Shown here piece by piece: positions 1 to 17,302 of a DNA stretch of 64,000 bases. A program made the translations under genes and the position numbers. The DNA lies in NCBI RefSeq assembly GCF_002214485.1, contig NZ_CP015102.1, forward strand, positions 434,001 through 498,000, written 5' to 3'. A model generated the notes under the pieces. It did no database searches. It saw only the letters and a list, made by a program, of their open reading frames with translations, and was not told where the DNA came from. Numbering within the stretch: the stretch's first letter is position 1; each line of letters starts with the position of its first letter. The stretch comes from Thermococcus pacificus (GTDB lineage: Archaea > Methanobacteriota_B > Thermococci > Thermococcales > Thermococcaceae).

Positions 1-1
1 G

Positions 2-2086: not shown

Positions 2087-2090
2087 TAGC

Positions 2091-3011
2091 ATGTGGGGAT
2101 TCGAGCTGGAGTTGAAGAAAAGCATTAGAACGAAGAAGTTCTGGCTGATATTAGTTTTGATTTTGCTGATCTACGTAATGGCCTTCAGGGAGGTAAAAGA
2201 CAACCTTGAGGGGGCCTCTGACCCCCAGGGAGTCCTCCTGACGAGCCTGGTCGGCTACATAGCGGTAAGCGCGTTCCTCTTCATCGGTGTCTACGCCCTC
2301 ATGGCGGGAGCAACGGGGATTAACTCAGACCTTGAAAACGGAACCCTCAGGGTGGCCCTGAGCAAGCCTCTTGGCAGGGGCTCCTACCTAATCGGCAAGT
2401 TCCTTGGTCAAAGCGTCAGCATAGTGGTTGCAATGGTCTTCGCCACCCTCCTGTCCTTTGTCGTAACAAAGCACTACGGCCTCTCCCTCAGCGGGAAGCT
2501 TGCCCTTGACCTCGCCCTGGCCAACGGTCTGGTTCTCTTGGCCATGCTCCAGCTTTTAGCCCTCGGCCTGCTAATTTCAACCTTCGTCCGCTCCCCGAAC
2601 ACCGCCTTAGGACTGGCCCTCGTGTTGTTCTTCGTCACGGGTCTTGTGGCCCCTCAGATCGTTGATGGGTGGGCAGAGGACAGGGCTGACAAGGAGTTTG
2701 GACTTCATGAGAGGGGAGACTTCACGAAGCTTTCGCCTGAGCAGAGAACGGCCTACCGGGAACGCCTTGGCGAGCTTTACAGGGAGTATCACCTGAAGTA
2801 CCTCTTCTACGTCCCGCAGGTTCTCATGCTTGATATCATCAGCGGCGTTGAGACGAGTAAGTTCAACGAAGACGGCACGTATACCATCGAGTACCTTGGA
2901 CTCAGGCATGCGATATCGGAGAACCCAGCTCAAACGGGGGTGATAGCGGCACTTATCCCCGTTTACCTCGCGCTGGCCCTCATCAGGTTCAAGAGGATGG
3001 ATTTGAGGTGA
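2091..3011 (+). CDS. ABC-2 type transporter permease (306 aa)
   Basis: This is a six-helix ABC-2 type permease of usual length. A short cytosolic N-terminus is followed by a first helix, then the element LSKPLGRGSYLIGKFLG near residues 93-109, typical of NosY/ABC-2 families. A soluble charged segment rich in Glu and Arg (about residues 195-245) sits between the fifth and sixth helices and is probably extracytoplasmic. The ATG at 2091 follows GAGGTGATAGC, a good ribosome-binding site. The stop overlaps the start region of the ATPase gene, so translation is probably coupled. Confidence 0.85.
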   Translation: MWGFELELKKSIRTKKFWLILVLILLIYVMAFREVKDNLEGASDPQGVLLTSLVGYIAVSAFLFIGVYALMAGATGINSDLENGTLRVALSKPLGRGSYLIGKFLGQSVSIVVAMVFATLLSFVVTKHYGLSLSGKLALDLALANGLVLLAMLQLLALGLLISTFVRSPNTALGLALVLFFVTGLVAPQIVDGWAEDRADKEFGLHERGDFTKLSPEQRTAYRERLGELYREYHLKYLFYVPQVLMLDIISGVETSKFNEDGTYTIEYLGLRHAISENPAQTGVIAALIPVYLALALIRFKRMDLR

Positions 3012-3016
3012 TGGTG

Positions 3017-3934
3017 ATGCTGAGGATTGAGAAACTCGTTAAGGTTTACAAGGACGTTAGGGCCTTGGACGGCCTTAGCCTTGAGGTCAAGCCCGGCCAG
3101 GTTTACGGTTTCCTCGGCCCAAACGGTGCTGGAAAAAGCACCACGATCCTAAGCACCCTCGGCCTGATCTTCCCCCAGGAAGGGCGCATAGAACTTTTCG
3201 GAGAGGAAGTCTTCAGGGATGGGAAGTTTGACGAGGGTAGGCTCGTTAAGGTCAAAGCCAGAATTGGGTACATGCCAGAGCACGCCACACTGTGGGACTT
3301 TTTGACCCCGGTTCAGACGCTGGACACCATTGCCGACGCGTTTAAAATCCCAAAGGCTGAGAAGGAGAAGCGGATTAACGAGCTTCTCGACCTTGTCGGT
3401 CTCAAGGATGCAAGGAACAAGAAGGTGGGCAAGTTCTCGAAGGGCATGCGCCAGAGGCTTCTCTTAGCTCAGGCTTTGATCAACGACCCCGAGCTTTTAA
3501 TCCTCGACGAACCGATGAGCGGTCTTGACCCCAAGGGCATTGCGGAGTTCAAGGACATCATCAGGGAGCAGAAGAAGGCCGGAAAGACCGTCTTCTTCTC
3601 CAGCCACATCTTAGCCCACGTCGAAGAAGTCTGCGACACCGTCGGAGTAATAGTCAAGGGCAAGCTCCGCTTGGAGGACAGCATTGAGAACATCAAGAAA
3701 GAGTTCCTGAAGAAGGCTGGCTACACAATACTCATTGAGACGAACAAGCCTGTGGATTGGCGTTCAGCGGAATTAAGCGTGACTTCACTCGGCGAGAACA
3801 AGTACCGCGTTGTTGCTTCGAGGGACGTTAGGGAGGAGATTCACGACTACGTTGCCTCCCAAGGCGCGAAGGTTCTAACAATGCAGGTGAAAGAGCCAAG
3901 CCTCGAGGAAATATTCCTAAAACTTGTCGAGTAG
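3017..3934 (+). CDS. ABC transporter ATP-binding protein (exporter type)
   Basis: This is the nucleotide-binding subunit that powers the three permeases upstream. Walker A is GPNGAGKST at residues 34-42, the signature motif appears as FSKGMRQRL near 138-146, Walker B is LLILDEPMSGLDP near 156-168, and the switch histidine follows in SSHILAHVEEVCD. A C-terminal extension of about 90 residues, as in CcmA/NatA-type exporters, ends the protein. ATG at 3017 is chosen over upstream GTG/ATG codons at 3008 and 3011 because GAGGTG lies six bases before it. The gene is last in its operon and is followed by a T-rich run. Confidence 0.9.
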   Translation: MLRIEKLVKVYKDVRALDGLSLEVKPGQVYGFLGPNGAGKSTTILSTLGLIFPQEGRIELFGEEVFRDGKFDEGRLVKVKARIGYMPEHATLWDFLTPVQTLDTIADAFKIPKAEKEKRINELLDLVGLKDARNKKVGKFSKGMRQRLLLAQALINDPELLILDEPMSGLDPKGIAEFKDIIREQKKAGKTVFFSSHILAHVEEVCDTVGVIVKGKLRLEDSIENIKKEFLKKAGYTILIETNKPVDWRSAELSVTSLGENKYRVVASRDVREEIHDYVASQGAKVLTMQVKEPSLEEIFLKLVE

Positions 3935-3960
3935 GTTTTTTTAACTTCCACTCCTTTCTT
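3935..3960 (+). terminator. T-rich terminator, also AT-rich promoter of next gene
   Basis: A run of seven T directly after the ATPase stop (gtttttttaac), followed by more pyrimidines, fits an archaeal intrinsic terminator. The same AT-rich stretch lies about 25-30 bp before the GTG at 3968 and could also act as its TATA box. Confidence 0.5.
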
Positions 3961-3967
3961 TTCTGAG

Positions 3968-4336
3968 GTGTCCAAAATCAAGGTCAAAACCCTAACGCGT
4001 GAAATCGTCTCCCTGGCGGAAGGACTAGGCCTGAAGGCCGTTCCCGAGTACAGAACGCCCGACGGCACGCGGATAGACATAGCCGTTCTCAACGGAGAGA
4101 AAAAGCTCCTCGCGATAGAGCTTGAGGCGTCCTTCAAGTGGTTTCCGCAGAGGCTGCTCTACGACGTGGTTAAGGCCCACAGGGCTGGCTTTCCCGAGCT
4201 GTGGGTCATAACTCCCTTCCGAAACACCAAACCGGGTTGGGTTTTGAACTACGCCAGGGAGATTGGAATCGGGTTGCGGATTCTAAAGGAAAAAGAAGTC
4301 ATAGAGGAATTCAGAGTCCTGTTGGCTCGTCTATGA
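3968..4336 (+). CDS. Small PD-(D/E)XK-like protein of unknown function
   Basis: This 122-residue soluble protein resembles a minimal PD-(D/E)XK nuclease fold. It has an N-terminal helix, Asp37 in the strand RIDIAV, then Glu51-x-Glu53 in the strand LLAIELEAS, followed by a helix with Gln61 and Asp66. The usual catalytic Lys is Glu here (ExE rather than ExK). No substrate is known to me, and it could be a DNA-end or repair-associated nuclease or an inactive relative. GTG at 3968 is the only reasonable start and has no spaced ribosome-binding site, so the mRNA may be leaderless. Its 3' end overlaps the convergent Nif3-like gene by 26 bases. Confidence 0.6.
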   Translation: MSKIKVKTLTREIVSLAEGLGLKAVPEYRTPDGTRIDIAVLNGEKKLLAIELEASFKWFPQRLLYDVVKAHRAGFPELWVITPFRNTKPGWVLNYAREIGIGLRILKEKEVIEEFRVLLARL

Positions 4337-5063
4337 AGAAGGCGTCAAGCCCAAAGCGCCCCTTTAAAAGCCCCATGAGGGCCTTTACTCCAAGCGTCTC
4401 CGTCTTGTAGTGCCCCGCCACGAGGACACTCTGTGGAAGATCAATAGCCGTTAAGTAATCGGCGTGCCCGAACTCACCGGTTATGAGGAGGTCAATTCTC
4501 TTCCTCCAAGCCTCCTCAAGGGCGAATGCTCCAGCTCCGCTGACCGCACCGACGGCTTTAATCTCCCTCTCCCCGAATTCATACGTCTTAACAGTCGTGT
4601 CGAGCTTCTCCGCTATTACCTGCGCGACCTTCTCAATAGGCTGCGGTTCATCGAACTCGCCCCAGTAGCCTATCGACAGTCCTCTGTATTCTCCGAACGA
4701 ACCCTTTGGCTCCAAACCGAGCAGTTTCAGCAGTTCAACGTTGTTTCCAACCTCAGGGTGGGCGTCCAGCGGGAGATGAGCGACGTATAGGTTCAGGCCG
4801 CTTTCAAAGAGGGCCTTTAAACGTTTGTAGTGCACCCCAGTGATGTAGTTCAGTCCGCCCCATATCATTCCATGGTGGACGATTAGCATGTCCGCTTTTG
4901 CTTTTGTGGCCCTCTCGATGGTTTTCAGCGTTGTGTCAACGGCAAAAGCGACCCTCTCAACGTCCTCCTTCCCCTCCACCTGGAGTCCGTTGCTCGACTT
5001 GTCCGGATAGGCAGAAATCTGAAGGTACTCATCAAGAAAGGCAACGAGTTCATCGCGGTTCAT
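4311..5063 (-). CDS. Nif3-like dinuclear metal center protein
   Basis: This is a member of the Nif3/YbgI family (DUF34), a widespread cytosolic protein forming a toroidal hexamer with a two-metal site; its biochemical role is still debated (GTP cyclohydrolase I type 2-like or metal-related). Metal-ligand motifs are visible: SNGLQVEG near residues 24-31, IVHHG near 61-65, AHLPLDAHPEVGNN in the middle, and near the C-terminus ITGEFGHADY and VAGHYKTET. The length (250 aa) is normal. ATG at 5063 is preferred because GGGGTGAG precedes it by a few bases; another ATG lies 18 bases upstream. It is divergent from elp3. Confidence 0.9.
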   Translation of the reverse strand: MNRDELVAFLDEYLQISAYPDKSSNGLQVEGKEDVERVAFAVDTTLKTIERATKAKADMLIVHHGMIWGGLNYITGVHYKRLKALFESGLNLYVAHLPLDAHPEVGNNVELLKLLGLEPKGSFGEYRGLSIGYWGEFDEPQPIEKVAQVIAEKLDTTVKTYEFGEREIKAVGAVSGAGAFALEEAWRKRIDLLITGEFGHADYLTAIDLPQSVLVAGHYKTETLGVKALMGLLKGRFGLDAFFIDEPTGL

Positions 5064-5084
5064 CTTCTCACCCCTATTCATCTG

Positions 5085-5097
5085 GTGAATTATTCAC
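5085..5097. promoter_or_regulatory. Palindrome upstream of the Nif3-like gene
   Basis: GTGAATTATTCAC is an inverted repeat with 5-bp arms and a 3-bp centre. It sits 22-34 bp before the Nif3-like start, about where transcription should begin, and within the 98-bp divergent region shared with elp3. It could be an operator. No regulator is assigned. Confidence 0.35.
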
Positions 5098-5118
5098 TAA
5101 CTGGATATGCCCGGCAAA

Positions 5119-5130
5119 CCCTTTTAAAAC
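5119..5130 (+). promoter_or_regulatory. TATA box of elp3
   Basis: The element cccttttaaaac lies about 32-43 bp before the elp3 ATG at 5162. With GGGAGTGA as ribosome-binding site at 5149-5156, this predicts a very short leader. Confidence 0.5.
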
Positions 5131-5161
5131 CGCCCCCTAAGCTGGGTCGGGAGTGAAGAAT

Positions 5162-6937
5162 ATGAACGGTGAGGACTTCAAAAAGGCAGTTGAGGAGATA
5201 GCGAGGGCTGTCCTGTCTGGCGAGATAAAGAGCAGAGAAGAGCTCAACCGCTACAAGATTATTGTATCCCGGAAGTATCACCTCTCAAAGATTCCCGGTA
5301 ACTCGGAGGTACTCAAGGCTATTCCAGAGGAGGAGCGCGAGCGCTTTAGGGAGCTCCTCAAGAGGAAGCCGACGAGGACGATAAGCGGTGTCGCCGTTGT
5401 GGCTATGATGACCAAGCCCTTCCCCTGTCCTCATGGGCGTTGCATCTACTGCCCCGGCGGACCGGCAATTGGTTCTCCGCAGAGCTACACGGGAAAGGAG
5501 CCTTCGGCTTTGAGGGCAGTCCAGAGCGCTTATCATCCTTACATCATTATGATGCGCCGCCTCAAACAGCTCACTGACATCGGCCATGACGTCGATAAGG
5601 TTGAGGTGATAATCCAGGGAGGAACCTTCCCGGCGGTCGACCTTGATTACCAGGAATGGTTCGTCAAGTGTGCCTTCAAGGCAATGAACGACTTTCCGCA
5701 CTTCAGGGACATCGAGAACCTTGAGGAGAAGCTCGTACGGCTGATTGTTAAGAGAGACGAGTCGGTTTTTGAGGAGGATCCGAAATTCAAAGAGGCCTGG
5801 CTTAAAACGCACAGGAGGCCCTACTACTACCTCGAGGAGGAGCAGAGGAAGAATGAAAAGGCTAGGGTCAGGATGGTTGGTTTAACCATAGAAACGCGCC
5901 CGGACTGGGCCTTCGAGAGGCAGATAGACAGGATGCTCCGCTTTGGGACTACCAGGGTTGAATTGGGCGTCCAGACGGTCTTCAACTTCATCCACGAGAG
6001 GACCAAGAGGGGCCACGGCGTTGAGGAAATAATCAAAGCCACCCAGCTCCTCCGCGATGCTGGTTTGAAAATCAACTACCACATAATGCCCGGTTTGCCT
6101 GGAAGCAACTTCGAGAGGGATCTGCACACCTTCAGGGCCATCTTCGAGGACCCGCGCTTCAGGCCCGACATGCTCAAGATATACCCGACGCTGGTCACCG
6201 CAGATGCGCCGCTCTACCGCTGGTGGAAGGAAGGCAAATACAGGCCTTACACTACCGAGGAGGCAGTTGAGCTTCTCGTCGAGGCTTACAAGTACTTCCC
6301 CAAGTGGGTTAGGGTAATGAGAATCCAGCGCGACATACCGGTCCAATTAATCGTTGATGGGGTTAAGCACTCGAACCTCGGCCAGCTCGTCTTCAACGAG
6401 CTGATTAAGCGCGGCATAAGGCCGAGGGAGATTCGCTTCAGGGAAGTGGGCCACCAGATGGAGAAGTTTGGAGTTGAGCCTGAGGTCGAGCACATAAAGC
6501 TCCTCCGCGAGGACTATGACGCCGCTGGCGGAAGGGAAATCTTCCTCAGCTTCGAAGACATCAAAAACGACATCCTCATCGGCTTCATCCGCCTAAGGAT
6601 TCCAAGCGAAAAAGCCCCCAGGAAGGAGATAAACTGTTGTCCCTCAGCTATAGTCAGGGAGCTCCACGTCTACGGCCCGCTCGTTCCGATAGGCGGAAAG
6701 CCCCGCTATGAGTGGCAACACAGAGGCTACGGCAGGGAGCTTTTAAGCGAGGCGGAGAGGATAGCCAAAGAGGAGTTCGACGTGAAGAAGATGCTCGTCA
6801 TAAGCGGCGTTGGCGTGAGGGAATATTACAGGAAGTTCGGTTACAGGAAGAACGGCCCATACGTTGCTAAGAAGCTCGATAAAGGCTACGCTGACTACAA
6901 AAAGAGCAAAGATTTTGACGCACACTTGAACACTTAA
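5162..6937 (+). CDS. elp3: tRNA uridine-34 5-carboxymethyl transferase Elp3
   Basis: This is archaeal Elp3, which makes 5-carboxymethyluridine at the wobble position of tRNA from acetyl-CoA using radical SAM chemistry. The radical SAM cluster is CPHGRCIYC with Cys89, Cys94 and Cys97 (CX4CX2C), followed by the Elp3 phrase CPGGPAIGSPQSYTG. The radical SAM half is followed by a zinc/tRNA-binding segment and a C-terminal GNAT acetyltransferase domain (QHRGYGRELLSEAERIA near residues 520-537 is the acetyl-CoA loop). The length of 591 aa is usual. ATG at 5162 has GGGAGTGA before it; a GTG at 5153 is the alternative. It overlaps the convergent gene at 6934 by four bases. Confidence 0.95.
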   Translation: MNGEDFKKAVEEIARAVLSGEIKSREELNRYKIIVSRKYHLSKIPGNSEVLKAIPEEERERFRELLKRKPTRTISGVAVVAMMTKPFPCPHGRCIYCPGGPAIGSPQSYTGKEPSALRAVQSAYHPYIIMMRRLKQLTDIGHDVDKVEVIIQGGTFPAVDLDYQEWFVKCAFKAMNDFPHFRDIENLEEKLVRLIVKRDESVFEEDPKFKEAWLKTHRRPYYYLEEEQRKNEKARVRMVGLTIETRPDWAFERQIDRMLRFGTTRVELGVQTVFNFIHERTKRGHGVEEIIKATQLLRDAGLKINYHIMPGLPGSNFERDLHTFRAIFEDPRFRPDMLKIYPTLVTADAPLYRWWKEGKYRPYTTEEAVELLVEAYKYFPKWVRVMRIQRDIPVQLIVDGVKHSNLGQLVFNELIKRGIRPREIRFREVGHQMEKFGVEPEVEHIKLLREDYDAAGGREIFLSFEDIKNDILIGFIRLRIPSEKAPRKEINCCPSAIVRELHVYGPLVPIGGKPRYEWQHRGYGRELLSEAERIAKEEFDVKKMLVISGVGVREYYRKFGYRKNGPYVAKKLDKGYADYKKSKDFDAHLNT

Positions 6938-7665
6938 GTGTTTGCCATTATCTCTTCCTCTGTTCTCCTTAGCTCTGCCTTCTTGATGGCTTCCTCATGC
7001 TCCCTCTCGCCCTTGCTTCCCTTCAGTCTCTCGGAGAGATTTATCAGGGCTTCCTCAGGGCCGTAGCAGATGAGCAAGTCTCCAGGGAGTATGACTGTGT
7101 CCCCCTTTGGGGCACCAAGGTAGACCTCGCCCTTCTCGGTCTTTCTATATATTCCTAGCACAAGGATTCCTTCTTTGTCAAGTTCAAGCTCCCTTAGAGT
7201 CTTGTTTGCGAGCCAGCTGTTTCTCTTGACCCTTATCTGGGATATGGAATAGCCCTTCGTTATGCCGAGTAGCTGGCTGTAGTCGTAAACCCTCAGCTCG
7301 GGGAAAGCCCTTGCCAAAAAGCGCTTTATCCAGCGCCTCATCCAGCGTTCAATCCTCTTGGACGTGAAGATGAGGTAAAGGAGGATCAAGCTCAGGCCGA
7401 GAATTGAGATGGAGGTTATAGTCTCGTTCCTGCTCTTGCCGGCAAAGGCCATGACGAGGGTTGCTATGGCAGATGTAATCCCCGCGCTCCCAAGGAATAT
7501 TAGAACCCTGATTATCTTCCTCCTGACGGGGTGGGAAACAACGTATTCACTCTCGCTTGTCGTGAAACCTGTACCAGAGAAAGCCGACTGGGCTTGGAAG
7601 GCGGCAATGTCCCTTGATAGGCCTGTCATTTCGAGGGCTATCGCGCCTATTCTGACTATGATCAT
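6934..7665 (-). CDS. Membrane protein with TrkA C-terminal (RCK_C) domain
   Basis: This is a two- to three-helix membrane protein carrying a cytosolic TrkA-C ligand-sensing domain, likely a potassium-related channel or transporter accessory. The N-terminal part contains AFQAQSAFSGTGFTTSESE, a phrase of this family; the C-terminal 90 residues include the strand-rich TrkA-C core (VILPGDLLICYG). The start is uncertain. The first ATG (7665) has no ribosome-binding site and cuts the first helix, while the frame continues up to 7713, one codon after the upstream stop, with LLALVSLILVITLS completing the helix. GGGGTGA lies six bases before an in-frame CTG at 7707, so a CTG start is plausible. Confidence 0.75.
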   Translation of the reverse strand: MIIVRIGAIALEMTGLSRDIAAFQAQSAFSGTGFTTSESEYVVSHPVRRKIIRVLIFLGSAGITSAIATLVMAFAGKSRNETITSISILGLSLILLYLIFTSKRIERWMRRWIKRFLARAFPELRVYDYSQLLGITKGYSISQIRVKRNSWLANKTLRELELDKEGILVLGIYRKTEKGEVYLGAPKGDTVILPGDLLICYGPEEALINLSERLKGSKGEREHEEAIKKAELRRTEEEIMANT

Positions 7666-7713
7666 TGAGAGGGTTATAACTAAAATAAGGGAAACGAGTG
7701 CCAGCAGTGGGCC

Positions 7714-8280
7714 TCACCCCGTGGATGGGTTTTTCTGTCCTTGGGTGTGCTCCATTTTTGCACTTAAAGCTATCGCAATGAAGTTGAGCCCGCTCATTAT
7801 CAGGTCAACCGACACGAAGAGTCCAACTGCCCAGAGGCCTGACCAGGGCCACTGAATAACTATCATGAATCCCAGGAGGATTGTAAGGAAACCTGAAAGC
7901 GTCATAAGGGCCCACTGGCTGATGTCTTTGTTCTGAAGGGCCACTCCAATCCTTATCGCTCCGATGGTTATCAGCGAGAAGCCAAGAACCAGCGTCAAAA
8001 TCGTCGTTGCCAGTACCGGGTTTTCAAGTGTCGCTATACCGCCTATTACGTATATCGCACCCATAATGATGTGGAGAGTTCTGCTCTTCCAGTCCTTGGT
8101 CTTCGTGATTCCCTGGATAACCTGCAGTGCTCCGCCAACGACCATGAAGGCACCGAAGATTGCCACGCTCGTTATTGTCAGCAGAGGCAGTATCATTAAT
8201 CCCGCAAAGCCCAGGGTCGTGAAGATTATCCCCAGACCCAGCATCCATATCCAGTTCTTCTTTACCTCTCCATACTCCAT
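7714..8280 (-). CDS. DUF308/HdeD-family membrane protein
   Basis: This 188-residue integral membrane protein has six predicted helices arranged as repeated hairpins, the pattern of the HdeD/DUF308 family (acid-resistance-type membrane proteins in bacteria, function unknown in archaea). Typical phrases are GLGIIFTTLGFAGL, MVVGGALQVIQGI and GALQ/GAIR-type small-residue repeats. ATG at 8280 is chosen because GGGGGTGGGATA precedes it; an ATG 24 bases further upstream lacks a site. It is upstream of, in the same frame as, and probably cotranscribed with the TrkA-C protein. Confidence 0.8.
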   Translation of the reverse strand: MEYGEVKKNWIWMLGLGIIFTTLGFAGLMILPLLTITSVAIFGAFMVVGGALQVIQGITKTKDWKSRTLHIIMGAIYVIGGIATLENPVLATTILTLVLGFSLITIGAIRIGVALQNKDISQWALMTLSGFLTILLGFMIVIQWPWSGLWAVGLFVSVDLIMSGLNFIAIALSAKMEHTQGQKNPSTG

Positions 8281-8362
8281 TATCCCACCCCCAAATTTTT
8301 TCACAAAAAGTTTCTTTATTGGCTTAAAAATTTTTCTGTGGTTGAGTAACTAAAATTTCGGC

Positions 8363-8374
8363 AAACTTATAAGC
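8363..8374 (+). promoter_or_regulatory. TATA box of truncated YkgJ-type copy
   Basis: aaacttataagc lies 21-32 bp before the ATG at 8395, so the truncated copy kept a promoter-like element that would give a nearly leaderless transcript. Confidence 0.4.
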
Positions 8375-8394
8375 GCTTCGTCTGACCTAAGACC

Positions 8395-8529
8395 ATGCGT
8401 TTCAAACCTAAACCCTTTATCGAGCCCGTGCCGTTCAAATGCCTCTACTGCCTAGACTGCTGTCGCGGAAGACACGTCTATCTAACGCTGAAGGACATTG
8501 AGAGGATAGCCAGAGACCTCAACACATAG
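8395..8529 (+). pseudogene. Truncated duplicate of YkgJ-type cysteine-cluster gene
   Basis: The frame gives 44 codons matching the N-terminus of the intact gene at 9985: identical residues 2-8, then one change (Thr9 to Ile), then identity through residue 40, and a stop four codons later. Bases 8422-8486 (65 bp) are identical to 10012-10076, while the codons on both sides have many synonymous differences. It keeps the first four cysteines (C16, C19, C22, C23) but lacks the later three. It is either a gene remnant left by a local duplication or a short product with only half the metal site. Confidence 0.8.
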
Positions 8530-8584
8530 TCCTGCGGATCCCTTAACTTGCTTTTATAAAACTCCAACTTTTTCATCCTCGTAA

Positions 8585-8596
8585 AACTTTTAAACA
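8585..8596 (+). promoter_or_regulatory. TATA box of gene 8628
   Basis: aacttttaaaca lies about 32-43 bp before the ATG at 8628. A second AT-rich element, cttttataaaac, is at about 8551-8562. The ribosome-binding site is a GGGGGT just before the start. Confidence 0.5.
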
Positions 8597-8627
8597 GGAA
8601 CGGACAACTTCAAGCCAGGGGGTCTTA

Positions 8628-9203
8628 ATGGGGAAGAATGGTAAACCCCGTCTCTCATACGAAACGAGCTTTAGGATCAAGGTCGGTCTCCTCGCGGTTA
8701 TCTTTGGGATCGCCATATTCATGACAGTTTACTATCCCCTGATCTCGCATGAGGTGGATCCTTTTCGTGTGTCCTCCCCAAAGGGGCAGATACTCCTCGC
8801 CAAGAACTTTTCCATGATGGGAGTAAATTACACCAACGTCGTTCCTTTCACGGCCGAGAACAACGCCCTCGTCCTCGGAGGAAAGGACGAGATGGAGGAT
8901 ACCCTCACCATCAAGATTTCCACGCCGGGATGGTGCGCTGACCTTTGGATCTGGGGAGGCTCCTCCAGCGGTTGGACAAGAAAGTACGAGTGTTTGAGGG
9001 AATTTCCCCTGAGCAAGTACGCGTTCAACAGGGTCCCAACCCGCGAGGCCAAGGAGATAGTCAGCTGGAACCTTGAGAAGGGATACATAATAGTCTTCCA
9101 CAAGAACAGCCCGGTTCAGAACTACGAGCTGGTGAACTTTACAGTGACCTACGGAGAAAGAACCGACTGGGGCGCCTTCAAGGTTGCAGTTAAAAGTTCC
9201 TGA
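8628..9203 (+). CDS. Orphan membrane-anchored extracytoplasmic protein, copy 1
   Basis: I do not recognise this family. The 191-residue protein has a short basic cytosolic N-terminus with the phrase SYETSFRIKV, one membrane helix at about residues 20-40, and an extracytoplasmic beta-rich domain of about 150 residues. The domain has a Cys in TPGWC and a second in YECLRE that could form a disulfide, and ends in NYELVNFTVTYG followed by DWGAFK. The next gene is a clear paralogue. Both lie between two copies of a YkgJ-type gene. No enzymatic motif is visible; adhesion, envelope or immunity-type roles are open. Confidence 0.75.
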   Translation: MGKNGKPRLSYETSFRIKVGLLAVIFGIAIFMTVYYPLISHEVDPFRVSSPKGQILLAKNFSMMGVNYTNVVPFTAENNALVLGGKDEMEDTLTIKISTPGWCADLWIWGGSSSGWTRKYECLREFPLSKYAFNRVPTREAKEIVSWNLEKGYIIVFHKNSPVQNYELVNFTVTYGERTDWGAFKVAVKSS

Positions 9204-9214
9204 GGTGCTGTGAG

Positions 9215-9742
9215 ATGAAGATTTCCTACGAGACATCATTCAGGCTCAAGGTGCTCGCCATAGCAGTTCTCTTCGGGCTGATCATCTTTTACTTGGTCTA
9301 CTACCCCATAATCTCCCACAATCCCGTGCCCTACGGGGTAGCGTCTCCAAGGGGCCAGATACTGCTCATGCAGAACATAACCCTAGGCGATTTCAGCTGG
9401 AATAACGCCGTGGACCTTTACAACAACCTTGTCCTTAAGGGGGACGAGGACTACAGCGATTACGTGGTCGTTAGACTCACCACGCCGGGGTGGTGCATGG
9501 ATGCGGTGGTCTGGGACGGGACGAAGTACACTAAAAGGGCAAGCTGCGTCCGTGAGGTCACGATATCGAGATACACCTTCCGCATACCTCCCGGTTCCTA
9601 CTGGTACCTCGATGGCTCCTACCACCTGATACTCTACAAGCCAGAGGGAACTCCCGAAAACTACGAGCTGGTGAACTTCACAGTGACCTACGGGCCGAAA
9701 TCTGACTGGGGCGCCTTCAAGGCCACCTATCCAAAGAAATAA
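9215..9742 (+). CDS. Orphan membrane-anchored extracytoplasmic protein, copy 2
   Basis: This is a paralogue of the preceding gene, 11 bases downstream and so in the same transcript; the upstream stop region (gaggtgctgtgag) provides its ribosome-binding site. Shared features in the same order are SYETSFR(L/I)KV, a single membrane helix ending in VYYP(I/L)ISH, SP(R/K)GQILL, TPGWC, a second Cys before (V/F)-type REVTISRY, and NYELVNFTVTYG..(S/T)DWGAFK. The middle portion is shorter and diverged. The pair arose by tandem duplication. I cannot name a function. Confidence 0.75.
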   Translation: MKISYETSFRLKVLAIAVLFGLIIFYLVYYPIISHNPVPYGVASPRGQILLMQNITLGDFSWNNAVDLYNNLVLKGDEDYSDYVVVRLTTPGWCMDAVVWDGTKYTKRASCVREVTISRYTFRIPPGSYWYLDGSYHLILYKPEGTPENYELVNFTVTYGPKSDWGAFKATYPKK

Positions 9743-9984
9743 TAAAAAAAGAGTGCCTTAGAAGCTGAGCTCCAAACCTAGAGCTCCGGTTCTTCTTCAT
9801 AGACATGGCTCTCCAGGAGGTTACGAAGCTCGCCCCCACGACGAAGATTCAGATAACCACACCCCACTCAGGTCAGTTGGTGGGCATCACGGCGTCGATG
9901 AGCAGGAACATGAAAAGGATTCATTGCACAAATCTGTACAATGACGGTTCGATGGCTTTTTAACCCCGGCGTGGAATGGTTTCC
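9743..9984. other. Intergenic stretch with a possible decayed minus-strand coding remnant
   Basis: No intact gene of convincing quality lies here. A 52-codon plus-strand frame (9805-9963) lacks recognisable features. Read on the minus strand, roughly 9930 down to 9775 gives hydrophobic membrane-like residues (FMFLLIDAVMPTN, then VVGASFVTSW) interrupted by stops, ending near an A/T run at 9743-9753 that would be T-rich on that strand. This resembles the 3' end of a decayed membrane-protein gene. It adds to the impression of a rearranged segment. Confidence 0.3.
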
Positions 9985-10512
9985 ATGCGCTTCAAACCCA
10001 AACCCTTTACCGAGCCCGTGCCGTTCAAATGCCTCTACTGCCTAGACTGCTGTCGCGGAAGACACGTCTATCTAACATTAAAGGATATAGAGAGAATCGC
10101 CCGGAAGGGTCACGACCCCCAGGACTTCGTAACCTTCTCGGTCGAGGGCAACCAGATACGCTTCGTCCTTGCGGTGAGGGAGTGGGACCTCGGCTGCGTC
10201 TTCCACGACCCGGAGACAGGGAAGTGCAAGATACACGACGCCAACCCGATAATCTGCAGGATCTACCCGTTCATGGTCTCACGTAAGCCGCTCGGCGTCG
10301 AGGGCGAGAAGCCCTTCGAGTACAAAGGCCAAACACTGTGGCTCTACTACGACGAGAGCTGTCCCGGAATAAACGCCGAAGAGCCGGAAACGGCGATAGA
10401 CCCGGAGGAGATAGCAGAGCTGGGCCTTGAATTTGAGAGAGAGTTCGAGAGGACGGACATGGAGGGTTTTGTGGAGCTGATAGAGCGGCTTGAGATAACG
10501 GAAACTAAGTGA
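9985..10512 (+). CDS. YkgJ-family cysteine cluster protein (Fe-S/Zn-binding)
   Basis: This is a member of the YkgJ/CxxCxxCC family, small cytosolic proteins thought to bind zinc or an iron-sulfur cluster. The N-terminal cluster is Cys16, Cys19, Cys22 and Cys23 (CLYCLDCC), and the distal ones are Cys71 (GCVFHD), Cys81 (GKCKIHD) and Cys91 (ICRIYPF), in the family's usual C..CC..C...C...CR-x-YPF order. ATG at 9985 is chosen because the duplicate at 8395 starts at the same residue; an ATG at 9976 is also possible. The length of 175 aa is normal. Its exact role is unknown, with oxidative-stress or maturation functions proposed for relatives. Confidence 0.85.
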   Translation: MRFKPKPFTEPVPFKCLYCLDCCRGRHVYLTLKDIERIARKGHDPQDFVTFSVEGNQIRFVLAVREWDLGCVFHDPETGKCKIHDANPIICRIYPFMVSRKPLGVEGEKPFEYKGQTLWLYYDESCPGINAEEPETAIDPEEIAELGLEFEREFERTDMEGFVELIERLEITETK

Positions 10513-10565
10513 CCCATAGAAGCAGTGTCTTGTCCCAAGCACTCTCGTGTTAAGGGGACTTCAAA

Positions 10566-10577
10566 AAGTTTAAATCC
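10566..10577 (+). promoter_or_regulatory. TATA box of gene 10610
   Basis: aagtttaaatcc lies 33-44 bp before the ATG at 10610, and GGTGGGG is the ribosome-binding site just before the start. Confidence 0.5.
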
Positions 10578-10609
10578 CCACCTATTGATTTACCCATTGG
10601 TGGGGTACT

Positions 10610-11029
10610 ATGGTCTCATTCGAGATCCGAGACGGAAAACTGATCATAACCTTATGGGACTCAGCTGACATGGACATTATTTCCGCTTTAGATCAACAAA
10701 TGTCGAGTGAATTTTCTTGGTGCTATAAGGTCGTCCGTATTGATGGCGAAATTAGCAAGAAACCCATTTTTAGAGACGACACCTGTGACGAAGAATGTCC
10801 GGTTTATGGATTTAGCCCCTTGGAACTCACTTACTTGGGAAAATCTGGAAATACTGGCATTGCATGGGGTGGAATAAAATCTGTGGAGGCTGGACCATTG
10901 ACCTTGTGGGTCGATGACGATAGGAACCTTGTTGTTTCACTTAACAGAACTGAACATCGACAAGTTAGGCTGGATATGCCGTTGCCAATAGAGAGATTCA
11001 CGGTTATAGTCCTACGAAAGGTTGAGTAA
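10610..11029 (+). CDS. Hypothetical protein, AT-rich orphan
   Basis: I do not recognise this 139-residue soluble acidic protein. It starts MVSFEIRDGKLIITLWD, is predicted mostly beta, and has three or four cysteines including CDEEC near residue 58. Codon use is visibly more AT-rich than in the neighbours (many gaa, aaa, att and tta codons), which suggests recent acquisition or relaxed selection. It has its own TATA box and a good ribosome-binding site (GGTGGGG), so it is probably expressed alone. Confidence 0.65.
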   Translation: MVSFEIRDGKLIITLWDSADMDIISALDQQMSSEFSWCYKVVRIDGEISKKPIFRDDTCDEECPVYGFSPLELTYLGKSGNTGIAWGGIKSVEAGPLTLWVDDDRNLVVSLNRTEHRQVRLDMPLPIERFTVIVLRKVE

Positions 11030-11088
11030 GTAAGAGTGTTAAAACGTTTTCGTTTTCTTTTTAAGTATCGCCTGATGAAGTGGATACT

Positions 11089-11595
11089 ATGGAGCGAGAA
11101 CTTAAATACCGCCGCGCCTCTGCCTGGGAGTACGACCTAATCCTCCGTGAGGCTGAGAAGTACGGCGAGCTTAGACACCACACCTTCGCGGTGGTTGAGG
11201 GCCGCTTTAGGGACGTCTACGCGGTGAACGAGAGGGTCTGGCGGGAGATAGAGGGCCTCAAAATGAAGCCCTACGCCTACGGCACCTTCGTCGGCACGAT
11301 AAAGGTGGATAAGAATCTGGTGGAGAAGTTCTACCCCAACGTTGAGTTCTTCTACTTTGTTGATGTTCAGAAGAACTACGCAGTCCTAACTCCCAAGGCG
11401 GGCTTTCTTTTCACAACCGGAAAGGACGTCCCGAGAAGCGGCGTGCGCTCTTACAACTGGCAGGGCACCAAGAAGCTCGTAATCTACGACGAGAACGGTA
11501 TAATCCTCGGCATAGGTAGAATAAACCCCGAGAGCAGGAAAAAGTTCATTCTGAACGTCACCGACATCGGAGAGTTCATCCGGAGGAACCGCTGA
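11089..11595 (+). CDS. PUA-domain RNA-binding protein, NIP7-like
   Basis: This 168-residue protein resembles the archaeal NIP7 homologue, a pre-rRNA-binding ribosome biogenesis factor. The N-terminal half is an alpha/beta domain; the C-terminal half from about residue 90 is the PUA domain, with the phrases [20 protein letters not shown] and [29 protein letters not shown] at 11089 is used; an in-frame GTG lies nine bases upstream. No operon partner is evident. An alternative is a free-standing PUA RNA-binding protein of another subfamily. Confidence 0.75.
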
Positions 11596-11613
11596 CTTTT
11601 CTCACCAGACGTA

Positions 11614-11666
11614 ACCTTTTTAAGAACCTCGGCGTTAGAGTACAATGGTAACGAAAGGTAACTAAA
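11614..11666 (+). promoter_or_regulatory. Promoter and tandem 10-bp repeats of the KaiC-like gene
   Basis: A TATA element (acctttttaagaa, 11614-11626) is followed by two adjacent 10-bp repeats, GGTAACGAAA (11647-11656) and GGTAACTAAA (11657-11666), directly before the GGGGGTGA ribosome-binding site. The repeat period of one helical turn and position near the expected transcription start make it a candidate operator. Confidence 0.45.
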
Positions 11667-11679
11667 GGGGGTGACGCTC

Positions 11680-12426
11680 ATGATCAAGAGAGTGAAGACG
11701 GGAATTCCAGGGATGGACGAGATACTCCACGGAGGAATCCCGGAGCGAAACGTTGTCCTGCTCAGCGGCGGTCCCGGAACGGGAAAGAGCATATTCTCAC
11801 AGCAGTTCCTGTGGAACGGCCTCCAGATGGGTGAGCCCGGAATATACGTGGCCCTTGAAGAGCACCCAGTTCAGGTCAGACAGAACATGGCCCAGTTCGG
11901 CTGGGACGTCAGGAAGTACGAGGAAGAGGGACTCTTCGCTATGGTTGATGCATTCACAGCGGGAATCGGCAAGAGCAAGGAGTACGAGAAGTACATAGTC
12001 CACGACCTCACTGACATTAGGGAGTTCATAGACGTTCTAAGGACGGCCGTGAAGGACATTGGAGCTAAAAGGCTCGTCGTTGACTCTGTAACGACCCTCT
12101 ACATAAACAAGCCCGCCATGGCGAGGAGCATAGTCATGCAGTTAAAGAGGGTTCTCGCTGGACTTGGCGTCACGAGCATCTTCGTCAGTCAGATAAGCGT
12201 TGGCGAGCGTGGTTTCGGCGGGCCCGGAGTTGAGCACGGCGTCGACGGCATAATCCGCCTCGACCTCGACGAGATAGACGGCGAACTCAAGCGCTCGCTC
12301 ATAGTCTGGAAGATGCGCGGGACGAGCCACAGCATGAGGAGGCACCCCTTTGAGATAACTGACAGGGGGATAATCGTCCACCACGACAAGGTCCTGAAGA
12401 GAGGGGGAATTGTCGAAACCGAGTGA
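11680..12426 (+). CDS. KaiC/RAD55-like RecA-superfamily ATPase
   Basis: This is a single-domain KaiC-like ATPase of 248 aa. Walker A is GGPGTGKS at residues 30-37, the Walker B strand ends in [10 protein letters not shown] near 125-134, and the typical KaiC-family phrases [23 protein letters not shown] (split across residues 8-30) and [19 protein letters not shown] follow. In archaea these proteins are thought to couple ATP to signalling or to regulate partners. ATG at 11680 follows GGGGGTGA; a GTG at 11671 overlaps that site. The next gene, 23 bases on, encodes a likely partner. Confidence 0.85.
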
Positions 12427-12449
12427 AAAGCTGAAAGGAGGTGATGGAG

Positions 12450-12953
12450 ATGGAGATTCCGCTGAACCCGATCGGAAGGGAGGAGATACACAGGCTGGAG
12501 AGCATACTCCTCTTCGCGACGCTCTTCAGGCCGGAGGTCATAGAGCTGATAAAGGATCCGGCCGAGAGGCTCACCTGGGTTGACAGCTTAGCGGTTGCCG
12601 CTGGAGCGATAGCCAGGGAGAAGGCTGGCATGACCACCGGTGAAATAGCAGAAGAGCTCGGCAGGACCGAGCAGACGATCAGGAAGCACCTCAAGGGCGA
12701 GACGAAAGCGGGCCAGCTCGTCAGGGAGACCTACGAGCTTATAAAGCAGGGCAAGCTTGACGAGCTCGTCAGGAACATCGAGATATTGGCCGGCGGCGGA
12801 AAACTCGTTCCGGAGGAGGAGTGCAGGAAGCTCGAGGAGAGAGTCAGAGAGCTTGAGGAAGAGAACCGCGAGCTGAAGGCCAAGGTCGAGAACGTCAGGA
12901 AAATCCTCAGCGACACGCTCGAAAGGGTGAAGGAGATAGAAAAGCTGCTTTGA
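12450..12953 (+). CDS. Helix-turn-helix regulator with C-terminal coiled coil, KaiC partner
   Basis: This 167-residue protein has a helical N-terminal domain, a helix-turn-helix at about residues 59-83 (MTTGEIAEELGRTEQTIRKH) and a long C-terminal coiled coil from about residue 118 to the end (ELEEENRELKAK, then RVKEIEKLL). It lies directly downstream of the KaiC-like ATPase with AAAGGAGGTGA as its ribosome-binding site, so the two are very likely one functional unit: an ATPase controlling a DNA-binding coiled-coil protein. ATG at 12450 fits the site; ATG/GTG codons at 12441 and 12444 overlap it. Targets are unknown. Confidence 0.75.
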   Translation: MEIPLNPIGREEIHRLESILLFATLFRPEVIELIKDPAERLTWVDSLAVAAGAIAREKAGMTTGEIAEELGRTEQTIRKHLKGETKAGQLVRETYELIKQGKLDELVRNIEILAGGGKLVPEEECRKLEERVRELEEENRELKAKVENVRKILSDTLERVKEIEKLL

Positions 12954-12955
12954 AT

Positions 12956-13384
12956 TCACTGCCCGTTTCCGTTCTTTCTCAGGGCCTCTTCCCACGTCAT
13001 TATCATGTGGGTGTAGGTCTCGTCGTCTTCCTCGATTCCGCGCTTTATCTCGCTGACGTGGGCGTACTTGGCCCTGAACTTCTCGAGTATGTAATCGACG
13101 GCCTTTTCCGGGTCTGCCTTGGTGCCGCAGGTGTAAACGTCCAGAGCGGCATAGCCCTTCTCCGGCCAGGTGTGAACCGAGATGTGGCTCTCCGCGACGA
13201 TTACGACGCCGCTCACTCCGGTCGGCGAGAACCTGAAGAAATAGCTCGATTTGACCTCCATGTTGCTTACCTTCGCTGCCTCGAGGAATATCTGTCTTAT
13301 CTTGTCAGCGTTACTGAGAACCTCGGGATCGCAACCGGCCGCCTCAACAACGTAGTGAAACCCGATCGTCTCTATCTCGCTCAT
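12956..13384 (-). CDS. speD: S-adenosylmethionine decarboxylase proenzyme
   Basis: This enzyme decarboxylates S-adenosylmethionine to supply aminopropyl groups for polyamines, which hyperthermophiles need in abundance. It is a small class-1 proenzyme of 142 aa that self-cleaves between Glu65 and Ser66 (VAESHISVHTWPE), turning Ser66 into the pyruvoyl group; His71 and Cys86 (DVYTCGTKA) are the conserved catalytic residues. ATG at 13384 follows GAGGTGAGAGCC; an earlier in-frame start 30 bases upstream lacks a site. It is convergent with the regulator gene, ending two bases away. Confidence 0.95.
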   Translation of the reverse strand: MSEIETIGFHYVVEAAGCDPEVLSNADKIRQIFLEAAKVSNMEVKSSYFFRFSPTGVSGVVIVAESHISVHTWPEKGYAALDVYTCGTKADPEKAVDYILEKFRAKYAHVSEIKRGIEEDDETYTHMIMTWEEALRKNGNGQ

Positions 13385-13415
13385 GGCTCTCACCTCTATC
13401 CCAGCTATAACCAAC

Positions 13416-13428
13416 CCTTTTTAAAGTT
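13416..13428 (-). promoter_or_regulatory. TATA box of speD
   Basis: On the minus strand the sequence aactttaaaaagg lies about 32-44 bp before the speD ATG. Confidence 0.5.
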
Positions 13429-13649
13429 AAGCCCCGAAGCGGAGAGCTGTGAACGGGCCGTTTTTCTGTTGAACTGTTTCGGCTGGGCCTGAAATGGATT
13501 GAGCATAGATTTACTGGCCGTTATTGAAATTTTCCGAGAGTTCCTAACCAATTCCTCTCAATCCAAGTGTGAGCCTTTTTTCATCGAAAAAATGCCTGCC
13601 GAACCCCCGTTAATCGCGCTCACCGGTGGCTATTTTTGGACGTGAACCA
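13429..13649. other. Divergent intergenic region with an A/T hairpin
   Basis: Between the speD and secF promoters about 220 bp hold no gene I can support. The only structure is a perfect inverted repeat, TTTTTTC (13576-13582) and GAAAAAA (13586-13592), around a 3-base loop. It is oddly placed between two divergent promoters rather than after a gene. Confidence 0.4.
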
Positions 13650-13704
13650 CTAATTTTAAAACCCGCACTTCTAACTAACGACAAGTCTTGCGAAAACTAA
13701 CGAC
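13650..13704 (+). promoter_or_regulatory. secF promoter with 9-bp direct repeat
   Basis: The TATA element ctaattttaaaacc (13650-13663) precedes the secF operon. ACTAACGAC occurs twice (13674-13682 and 13696-13704), 22 bp apart, around the expected transcription start, and could be a regulator site. Confidence 0.45.
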
Positions 13705-13715
13705 GGGGTGAAGCT

Positions 13716-14630
13716 ATGTCGAAGCCCAAGATCAAGGAGAAGCCCACGGCCAGTGATGCCGTCAGGGCAAGAAAACGGAAGAGCTTGAGCTTTCTGGCTC
13801 AGATGGAATACAGGAAGATGATTTTGTACCCACTGGTGGTATTTCTGGTGGCTCTTATCATTCTCGCGGTTCACTTCCCCAGGCTGGGGATAGACCTGCG
13901 CGGCGGTGTGGTCGTTACAGCCTACGGCGTCAGCGCCAATCCCGACCAGCTGGCCAAGGATCTCAGCGGAAAGCTTGGGGTCGAGGTCAGAGTGGAGAGC
14001 TTTACAGGAGTTGACAACAAGGGCGTCAGGATCTACGCACCCGTCGGCACCGATCCAACTGGGATAATCAGGATCATGAAGGAGATGTACCCTGATGCTG
14101 AATACACCCACAGTGAGGTCCAGCCCACCTTTGGAGAGATATCCCAGAAGCAGGGCCTCAGGGCCGTAGCACTGGCTTTCGTGGCAATGGCGGTGGTGGT
14201 CTTCCTGTTCTTCAGGGACCCGGTTCCGTCAATGACGATAATATTCTCCGCCCTCTCGGACATGACAATCGCCCTGGCACTCATGGGGCTCTTCGGGATC
14301 GAGCTGACCACCGCGACGATAGCTGCGCTGCTGATGCTCATAGGTTACACCGTTGACAGCAACATACTCCTCACCACAAAGCTCCTCAAGAGAAAGGAAG
14401 ACACCGTCGACAAAGCCTACCTATCCGCGGTCTCGACGGGATTCACAATGAGCACGACCACCCTCGGTGCGCTCCTCGTCCTGTGGATCATCTCCACCAG
14501 TCAGACCATCGACAACATAGCCATAGTCCTCATCTTCGGTCTGCTGGCTGATTTCATGAATACGTGGGTGCTCAACGCAGGCGTGCTCAAGTGGTACATC
14601 TCAAAGAACCCAAGGGGTGGTAGCGCATGA
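13716..14630 (+). CDS. secF: Protein-export membrane protein SecF
   Basis: SecF works with SecD to pull proteins across the membrane after the SecYE channel. The protein has a basic cytosolic N-terminus, helix 1 near residues 38-55, the conserved extracytoplasmic start GIDLRGGVVVTAYG, and five helices in the C-terminal half with the family motif LLMLIGYTVDSNILLTTKLLKRKED. Length (304 aa) is usual for archaea. GGGGTGA precedes the ATG. Its stop overlaps the secD start by four bases, so the two are translationally coupled; the archaeal order is F then D. Confidence 0.95.
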   Translation: MSKPKIKEKPTASDAVRARKRKSLSFLAQMEYRKMILYPLVVFLVALIILAVHFPRLGIDLRGGVVVTAYGVSANPDQLAKDLSGKLGVEVRVESFTGVDNKGVRIYAPVGTDPTGIIRIMKEMYPDAEYTHSEVQPTFGEISQKQGLRAVALAFVAMAVVVFLFFRDPVPSMTIIFSALSDMTIALALMGLFGIELTTATIAALLMLIGYTVDSNILLTTKLLKRKEDTVDKAYLSAVSTGFTMSTTTLGALLVLWIISTSQTIDNIAIVLIFGLLADFMNTWVLNAGVLKWYISKNPRGGSA

Positions 14631-16150
14631 AAAAGAGAACCAAAAAGCTCCTTTTCAACTGGAGGATCATACTGCTCATCCTGTTCCTCGTCGGCTCAAT
14701 AGCCACCCTCGCGCTCAAACCGCTGACCTTTGGAATAGACATCTCCGGCGGTGTCGCCCTCGTTGCGCAGACCGAGCACCCCGTCGACAGCGACACGATG
14801 CAGCTCGTCGTTGATTCGCTTCAGAAGAGGCTGAACACCCTCGGAGTGAGGGACATAACCATCGAGGCTCAGGGGAACCAGATAGTCCTTGTGAAGGTCG
14901 CTAACGTCAGTACCGAAGAACAGGCCAACCAGATAAAGGCCGTGATAGAGAACCAGGGCGTTTTCTACATGGAGTTCAACGGCGAGATATTCGGCACCGG
15001 TAAAGACGTCGAGTACGTTGGGATCTACCAGATAAAGTCCGACAACAGCTGGGCCGTCCCGTTCAGGATTTCTAAGGCCGCCGCCGAGAAGTTCGCGAAG
15101 CTTGCCGAGGGGAAGCCCGGCTGGCCGGTTGACATGTTCCTTGATCCCCCCGTCAACTCCCTCATGGTGGTTCCGGACAACATCTACAGACTCATGAACA
15201 GCACCGAGTTCAATGCCCAAGCCCCCAACGCCCCGACCCTGCTGGAGAGGATTACCAAAGCGTTCAACATAACGGTCGTCACCTACGCCAACCAGAGCGC
15301 GGAGGAGATAGCTAAGCTCGCTCAGGGTAAGGACAAGATAGTTCTCATCAACGTTCCACAGGAGCTCCAGACCGAGCTTGAGAACATGAACCTCACCGTC
15401 CGCTACATCCCCGGTGAACCTGGCGTGAGCGACCGCCAGATTATCATTAAGGCCCTCGGCCTCTACGGTCCCTACTCGCTCGGCGAGGGTCTCGCCTCCG
15501 GCCAGCCCCAGCAAGACGTCCAGATCACAGGAAGTGCCCCCGACAGGCTGACCGCCGAGCGGGAGGCCAGCACGATATACACCGTCCTCAAGAGCGGTTC
15601 GCTCCCGGTCAAGCTCAACGTCGTTGGAATGGAGTTCATCTCCCCGCGTCTCGGGGAGAACTTCAAAACCCAGGCCCTCTACGCTGGACTTGCGGCGCTC
15701 ATGACGGTGCTCATCATAATCTACTACCACTACCGGAACTGGAAGATAGCTATCCCGGTGGCGAGCACCAGCCTCTTTGAGGTTATCATAATCCTCGGCT
15801 TTGCGGCACTGATCAACTGGAACCTCGACCTCCCGAGCATCGCGGGTATCATAGCGGCTATAGGTACGGGCGTTGACCAGCAGGTCGTCATAACCGACGA
15901 GCTCCTCAGCGGTGAGAGGAGCGAAAGAATAACCAGGCGCGCCAGCGTGCTGAAGAGGATGGGGAGGGCGTTCTTCGTAATATTCGCCTCTGCAGCGACC
16001 ACAATCGCGGCCATGAGCTTCCTGCTGGTGTACTTCGTCGGAACGCTCAAGGGCTTTGCATTCACGACAATACTGGGCGTCCTCATTGGAATACTCATCA
16101 CCAGGCCGGCCTACGCCGAGATAGCCAAATACCTACTCGGTGAGGACTGA
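14627..16150 (+). CDS. secD: Protein-export membrane protein SecD
   Basis: SecD partners SecF in the archaeal protein-export machinery. It has helix 1, the D1 phrase GIDISGGVALVAQTE near residues 37-51, a large extracytoplasmic domain of about 300 residues, then five helices with GTGVDQQVVITDEL, the counterpart of the SecF motif. There are 507 residues. The D1 domain is longer than in many bacteria, as in other Thermococcales. Its TGA overlaps the next ATG by one base, so the TrkA gene is cotranscribed. Confidence 0.95.
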   Translation: MKKRTKKLLFNWRIILLILFLVGSIATLALKPLTFGIDISGGVALVAQTEHPVDSDTMQLVVDSLQKRLNTLGVRDITIEAQGNQIVLVKVANVSTEEQANQIKAVIENQGVFYMEFNGEIFGTGKDVEYVGIYQIKSDNSWAVPFRISKAAAEKFAKLAEGKPGWPVDMFLDPPVNSLMVVPDNIYRLMNSTEFNAQAPNAPTLLERITKAFNITVVTYANQSAEEIAKLAQGKDKIVLINVPQELQTELENMNLTVRYIPGEPGVSDRQIIIKALGLYGPYSLGEGLASGQPQQDVQITGSAPDRLTAEREASTIYTVLKSGSLPVKLNVVGMEFISPRLGENFKTQALYAGLAALMTVLIIIYYHYRNWKIAIPVASTSLFEVIIILGFAALINWNLDLPSIAGIIAAIGTGVDQQVVITDELLSGERSERITRRASVLKRMGRAFFVIFASAATTIAAMSFLLVYFVGTLKGFAFTTILGVLIGILITRPAYAEIAKYLLGED

Positions 16151-16842
16151 TGTTCGTCGTGATAATGGGTGCCGGGAGGGTCGGCTTCCTCGTTGCCAAA
16201 ATGCTCGAGGAGGACGGCCACGACGTCACCATAATCGAGATGAACAAAGAAAGAGCGAAGGAGCTCTCCCTCCTCATAAACGGCCTTGTAATAGAGGGCG
16301 ATGCCACAGACCCAAAAACCCTTGAGGAGGCCAACATCAAGCAGGCTGACGCCTTCGCCGCTTTAACTGGTAAGGACGATGCCAACCTGCTCGCCTGCAT
16401 ACTGGCGAAGCACCTGAACCCGAAGATAAGAACCTCCCTCAGGATAGGCAATCCCAAGAACCGGAAGATATTCGAGGAGGTAACCGACCTCAAGAGGTAC
16501 TTCGACTTCGTCATCTCCCCCGAGGAGATAGCCGCAGAGTACATAAGCAGAAACATCGTAACACCTGGCTTCGACAGGGTGCTCTTCCCGAAGGAAGGGG
16601 CAGAGATAGTCCGCTTCAACATCGACGATAACAGTGATGTGGCCGGAAAGCTCGTGAAGGATTTGAAGCTGCCCAAGGACGCCCTCATTATAGCCATTTA
16701 CGACGAGAAGGGCAACCTGATAATTCCGTCTGGGGATACGAAGCTCCCCGAGAAGGGCCAGGTTATCGTCTTCGCCAAGAACAACGCTCTGGAGGGCGTG
16801 AAGGGTCTTCTCGAGAGGAAAAAACACGACAATGAAAGTTAA
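16150..16842 (+). CDS. trkA: TrkA-type potassium uptake regulatory protein
   Basis: This is a cytosolic RCK protein of 230 aa that gates potassium transporters in response to nucleotides. The N-terminal Rossmann fold starts FVVIMGAGRVGFLVAKML (GxGxxG at residues 7-12) with an acidic Glu at the end of strand 2 (VTIIEMNKE) for NAD binding; a TrkA-C domain covers about residues 140-220 (LPEKGQVIVFAKN). It overlaps secD by one base. No transmembrane Trk subunit is adjacent, so its partner is encoded elsewhere; the gene at 6934 is a separate TrkA-C protein. Confidence 0.9.
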   Translation: MFVVIMGAGRVGFLVAKMLEEDGHDVTIIEMNKERAKELSLLINGLVIEGDATDPKTLEEANIKQADAFAALTGKDDANLLACILAKHLNPKIRTSLRIGNPKNRKIFEEVTDLKRYFDFVISPEEIAAEYISRNIVTPGFDRVLFPKEGAEIVRFNIDDNSDVAGKLVKDLKLPKDALIIAIYDEKGNLIIPSGDTKLPEKGQVIVFAKNNALEGVKGLLERKKHDNES

Positions 16843-16911
16843 CATAAGGTTTTCTTCAAATTTTATGCCCATTTCTGTTCTTTCTCCACAATATTTTGAA
16901 TCCGGGGCCAA

Positions 16912-16924
16912 AAACTATTTAAAG
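16912..16924 (+). promoter_or_regulatory. TATA box of the A-ATPase operon
   Basis: aaactatttaaag preceded by the purine-rich gggccaa is a good BRE/TATA pair about 65 bp before the atpH start. It predicts a leader of roughly 40 bases. A T-rich stretch at 16850-16890 just upstream could end the secFD-trkA transcript. Confidence 0.6.
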
Positions 16925-17300: not shown

Positions 17301-17302
17301 CT

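Follow-up and report, generated by a model that had tools for sequence, protein, structure and literature searches.

In the window analysed here (the whole stretch of 64,000 nt from the Thermococcus pacificus chromosome contig NZ_CP015102.1, to which all positions refer), two alternative gene sets known from the region between elp3 and ykgJ of other Thermococcus genomes lie one behind the other. Very probably these two structural alleles, termed type I and type II below, were joined in series by an unequal exchange that left a truncated ykgJ 5’ end as a scar. The truncated copy is referred to as T and the intact gene as I; G numbers denote the genomes compared.

A second 5’ end of ykgJ

The first 121 bp of ykgJ, which codes for a YkgJ-like protein of the CxxCxxCC type, are found a second time at 8395-8515 on the plus strand, comprising codons 1-40 plus one base (T). 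The intact gene I (9985-10512, plus strand, 175 aa) matches PF03692 with E=7e-14 and 52.7 bits (cut-off 23), and an in-frame ATG is present at 9976, 5’ of its start codon. T and I constitute a direct repeat of 119 bp with copies 1,590 bp apart. The initial annotation had described the duplicate at 8395 with its coordinates, an open reading frame of 44 codons (8395-8529) and a mosaic pattern of identity, and all of these are present. The reading frame is a ykgJ copy only up to 8515, however, since its last ~14 bp are an elp3 3’ end.

Over the first 123 bp of ykgJ, T and I differ at 14 positions (0-based ORF positions 5, 14, 25, 92, 93, 95, 101, 104, 110, 113, 117, 119, 120 and 122). These are unevenly distributed: the first 27 bp hold three differences, the following 65-66 bp are identical and the last 31 bp hold eleven; within the first 40 codons a single change is non-synonymous. 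The identical run, previously given as 65 bp (8422-8486), is real and one base longer, i.e. 66 bp (8421-8486 and 10011-10076, both plus strand). No difference in 65 positions within the tract thus faces 11 in 54 in its flanks. Placing 11 differences uniformly over the 119 bp before the joint yields such a run with p = 0.0008, and weighting sites by ortholog variability with p = 0.003. Among 660 ortholog pairs with similar flank divergence, every pair differs in the middle 65 bp, at one site at least and at 12 in the median.

An ortholog of ykgJ is found in 60 of 61 genomes of the genus, the one lacking it being an incomplete draft, and the additional 5’ fragment occurs in the present genome (G000) only. 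The gene is otherwise single-copy, apart from draft G039 with two full copies on separate contigs and G016 with a split gene. In the latter (L124:7682-7910) ykgJ is broken near codon 31 by 12.1 perfect copies of a 19-bp unit. As this unit is not a multiple of 3, the copy number would shift the frame. The repeat array sits close to where the identity of T and I ends.

Alternative contents between elp3 and ykgJ

The elp3-ykgJ slot holds different contents among the genomes of the genus (type I, type II, combined or empty), so that different gene sets lie between the same conserved flanks in related genomes, as in variable islands of the replacement type. Type I has the order elp3-TrkA_C-DUF308-(91 bp)-ykgJ, with TrkA_C and/or DUF308 on the minus strand and ykgJ ~91-116 bp past DUF308 (G013, G031, G037, G045, G048 and G050). 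These genomes lack the supposed cassette and have a single ykgJ at the joining point, just as the initial annotation had anticipated. In type II, elp3 is directly upstream of pA and pB and a second DUF308 paralog often follows, resulting in elp3-pA-pB-(DUF308 paralogue)-ykgJ without any ykgJ fragment (e.g. G032, G021, G002, G018, G024, G058, G059, G035, G019 and G049, as well as G060 with a decayed pA). Both sets are combined in G001, G003 and G046 and in part in G005 and G022. In the empty form ykgJ follows elp3 after 12-13 bp (e.g. G008, G009, G015, G047 and G055). G005 (L091) carries TrkA_C-DUF308 plus one pair member with a pA-like N-terminus and a pB-like body upstream of ykgJ, which suggests a pA-pB fusion through deletion between the paralogs.

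The order in the window is type I, then type II. The left core border of the slot, conserved in most loci, is elp3 (5153-6937, plus strand; radical SAM and GNAT domains according to Pfam). It is followed by a TrkA_C-domain membrane protein gene (6934-7665, minus strand; Pfam TrkA_C), which has the same place in G045, G050, G031, G037 and G048, and by a gene for a DUF308/HdeD-like membrane protein (7714-8304, minus strand; Pfam DUF308; 79-84% at the amino acid level to G045, G013, G050 and G031). DUF308 begins at 8304 and T starts at 8395, hence T occupies the exact position of a type I ykgJ. Moreover the divergent intergenic region in between (8305-8394) is of type I by alignment. G013 and G031 align to it at 80%, in register with positions -90 to -35 relative to their intact ykgJ, and the seven genomes covering at least 70% of it all have DUF308 adjoining ykgJ. 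It contains a TATA-like TTATAA at 8367-8372, 22 bp before the start codon of T. At positions 5 and 14, T has rare states that also occur in G045, likewise type I.

The right half is of type II. It starts with an elp3-pA intergenic region (8530-8627, plus strand; 82% to G060) including a conserved promoter-like element of pA, GTAAAACTTTTAAAC. The gene pA (8628-9203, plus strand), whose orthologs lie upstream of ykgJ, codes for an N-terminal transmembrane helix and an ectodomain and is 75-78% identical to several genomes. Its paralog pB (9215-9742, plus strand) shows 87% nucleotide identity to G060. What is left of the type II DUF308 paralog follows at 9743-9905 (minus strand); this fragment stems from its 3’ part, is no longer open and shows 74% identity to G001 and G018 (about -686 to -615 relative to ykgJ), 80% to G035 and, in a gapped alignment over 188 columns, 64% to G001. 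The last part, 9906-9984 (plus strand), corresponds to the type II promoter region of the intact ykgJ (79% to -80 to -1 of G036 and 92% to -38 to -1 of G060). What had appeared as one decayed stretch (9743-9984) is therefore a recognisable DUF308 remnant followed by the promoter region of ykgJ.

When the order was searched with a profile, the pA/pB family was found in 29 genus genomes including the present one and in two of a sister genus, a weak hit in G034 from a separate search being discounted; within the order the family was seen only in Thermococcus and these two genomes. In all carriers of the genus it is located just upstream of ykgJ on the same strand. The two genes had been taken for orphans, which does not hold given the 28 other Thermococcus genomes with the family in this place, and the supposed insertion is thus an old neighbour of ykgJ. 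The family shows invariant W93-C94 and C111 and a C-terminal ENYELVNFTVTYG-like motif but no known domain, and neither protein has a sequence match in Pfam, NCBIfam or PDB. In the model of pB (pLDDT 90), a single long N-terminal helix, of a length suited to span the membrane, precedes a beta-sandwich ectodomain. A fold search with it retrieved nothing beyond generic beta sandwiches (immunoglobulin-like or FimH-like), at query TM-scores of ~0.35 or below, and hence we claim no function for pA and pB.

The joint with a foreign elp3 end

The novel joint is located at about 8515/8516, after codon 40 of T. From 8516 on (ACCTCAACACATAGTCCTGCGG...) the sequence continues as the end of a type II elp3. 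Positions 8516-8624 are 82% identical to the elp3 end and the pA upstream region of G060 over 111 columns (E=3e-24), TAGTCCTGCGG included. The first part, 8516-8529 (plus strand), comprises the last codons and the TAG stop of elp3 (...LNT*), and the stop codon of T is therefore an elp3 stop codon. The elp3 end reads GAC CTC AAC ACA TAG TCCTGCGG here and CAC CTG AAC ACG TAG TCCTGCGG in G060; accordingly, the T peptide ends in ...IARDLNT* and Elp3 in ...AHLNT*. The coding part of this tail is short (14 bp), with additional support from its 3’ flank, and the joint is known from one assembly (1 of 61 genus genomes). As the end of the resident elp3 (6937, TTGAACACTTAAGTG) differs from the tail of T in sequence and in stop codon, the tail was not copied from there. 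At the joint, ykgJ codons 40-41 and the elp3 end share only ~1-2 bp. One joint without significant homology between the parents is a feature of homology-facilitated illegitimate recombination.

Identical tract and mosaic affinities

Behind the identical tract the two copies have different relatives, T being closest to G008 (26/31) and I to G036 (29/31). A 100% match of the T tail to G015 arose only because BLAST covered it in part, and was disregarded. In the shared middle, the resemblance is to G008 (61/65). At sites that distinguish G008 from G036, I sides with G008 within the tract (6:1) and with G036 right behind it (23:2 over 10077-10164), a switch that is significant already on the first part of the tail (6:1 vs 0:11, Fisher p = 4e-4). 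This pattern favours an exchange of the ~66-bp tract between T and I by gene conversion after the joining. The identity could also reflect general mosaicism of ykgJ. We prefer conversion because the identity is exact and includes a state at 8454 that is otherwise found only in G011. Conversion most likely ran from the stub to the intact gene, a direction we infer from the affinities. This later exchange does not require a pTN3-type integrase, which can act on short homologies (PMC5495485, 104 bp).

The surroundings are mosaic as well. By rpoB/A the closest neighbours of the genome are G019 and G049 (89%), with G008 at 83%, and positions 20400-40300 of the window agree in part with this placement. 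The gene at 11671-12426, in contrast, is 93-94% identical to G008 and 82-84% to G019. The block around the slot is thus a patchwork closest to relatives of G008, G060 and G036, which independently shows exchange between species at this locus. I is itself a mosaic, and the genes after it are G008-like.

At 11671-12953 a KaiC-like gene and the next gene show 92-94% DNA identity to G008 or G060, far above the 83% of rpoB/A to these two genomes. This excess is a sign of exchange between species. Between ykgJ and the PUA gene lies an ORF of 139 aa (10610-11029) with a G+C content of 43% compared to 55% for the window. It has no match in the other 60 genus genomes nor in Pfam or NCBIfam; several genomes have an unrelated membrane protein of ~190 aa in this place.

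Origin of the arrangement

We propose that a single unequal crossover, essentially non-homologous, connected codon 40 of a type I ykgJ with the stop codon region of a type II elp3, presumably after uptake of foreign DNA. At the other end, ordinary homologous recombination in ykgJ or beyond it would presumably have resolved the exchange. The first ykgJ would thereby have been cut to a 5’ stub borrowing its stop from elp3 while the second stayed intact, and stub and intact gene would later have exchanged the ~66-bp tract. A single event may be too simple. The right half has no single parent (pB is G060-like, pA at 75-78% to several genomes and ykgJ a mosaic), for which reason repeated exchanges are likely, and with the joint in one genome only, intermediate steps are not visible. 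Moreover the two sets coexist scar-free in G001, G003, G046 and partly in G005, so that a different history can also bring them together.

Recombination at a mosaic duplicate with gene conversion had already been proposed in the initial annotation. The tract and the affinities bear this out, but its local duplication does not fit, as T and I have different upstream regions and affinities and T is fused to an elp3 end. In its strict form this reading says that a stretch reaching from the 3’ end of elp3 as far as codon 40 of ykgJ was doubled in place and that the copies then lost different genes. A ykgJ 5’ end followed by an elp3 3’ end is indeed the order expected at a duplication joint. However, at least two more clean deletions would be needed that happened to restore the precise type I spacing on the left and, on the right, an elp3-pA junction as in G060, and the left and right segments hold different genes instead of two copies of the same content. 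Together with the foreign elp3 tail and the different affinities of the flanks of T and I, this makes tandem duplication unlikely. An insertion of pA-pB into ykgJ as a transposable or integrating unit that duplicated its target might be suspected from the direct repeats, yet we regard it as extremely improbable. The 121-bp repeat is coding and its copies differ at many sites, unlike a short target duplication, and the family resides just upstream of ykgJ in 29 of 29 genus carriers and never away from it. No transposase or integrase domain was found among the genes tested, no matching terminal inverted repeats, no tRNA in window positions 1-20000, no Rfam RNA and no attachment site. The insertion/excision boundary suggested earlier hence exists only in a passive sense: if T and I recombined, pA-pB is predicted to be lost, leaving DUF308 next to an intact ykgJ again.

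T might also be a functional small protein of 44 aa with a CxxCxxCC motif and its own promoter, kept by selection. The TATA-like box, the open frame and the scarcity of non-synonymous change relative to I would agree with this. Still it is highly unlikely, since the remainder of the domain with the downstream cysteines is missing from T, only one species has T, and conversion accounts for its likeness to I in the middle. Taken together, the serial joining of a type I and a type II allele accounts best for T and its flanks.

Comparison with known systems

Among Thermococcales, Pyrococcus furiosus is reported to undergo both natural transformation and gene conversion; T. kodakarensis and T. barophilus are cited as further naturally transformable species (PMC5099854). 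A close parallel is homology-facilitated illegitimate recombination in Acinetobacter, S. pneumoniae and P. stutzeri (PMC3240628, PMC2884548), which likewise combines a foreign allele, one non-homologous joint and flanking homology at the other end and gives alternative or added segments at a locus. It is described in bacteria, whereas the present event is derived from one archaeal genome, and here the joint links two borders of the same slot. In transformation-induced merodiploids of S. pneumoniae (PMC3784515), unequal crossing-over likewise duplicates flanking sequence in tandem. There, incomplete IS copies serve as the repeats and ~100-900 kb are duplicated, while the joint in T. pacificus is almost without homology.

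Replacement flexible genomic islands (PMC4033161) show alternative contents between the same flanks, exchange between lineages and mosaic borders as well; here the contents are stacked instead of swapped and the slot spans only a few kb. In the displacement of T6SS effectors in V. cholerae with its orphan immunity arrays (PMC5361080), a new module is also placed beside the old one and a remnant stays as scar. The remnant in T. pacificus is a truncated core gene, however, and the genes involved are not known toxin-immunity pairs.

Implications for variable slots in Thermococcales

The scar is a clean fossil of recombination, ordinary in kind and unusually readable. Such scars are usually erased, and the present one still displays both parents, the joint and the later conversion tract. 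Its sequence is thereby direct evidence that structural alleles of different Thermococcus species can be joined unequally, and its defined direct repeats offer a configuration whose rate of loss could be measured. Whether end-to-end stacking of alleles is a regular way by which small variable slots in Thermococcales grow, with subsequent loss of the scar giving the combined forms of G001, G003, G046 and G005, is a speculative extension that we consider rather doubtful. If so, the repeat of stub and intact gene would make the added genes easy to lose again.
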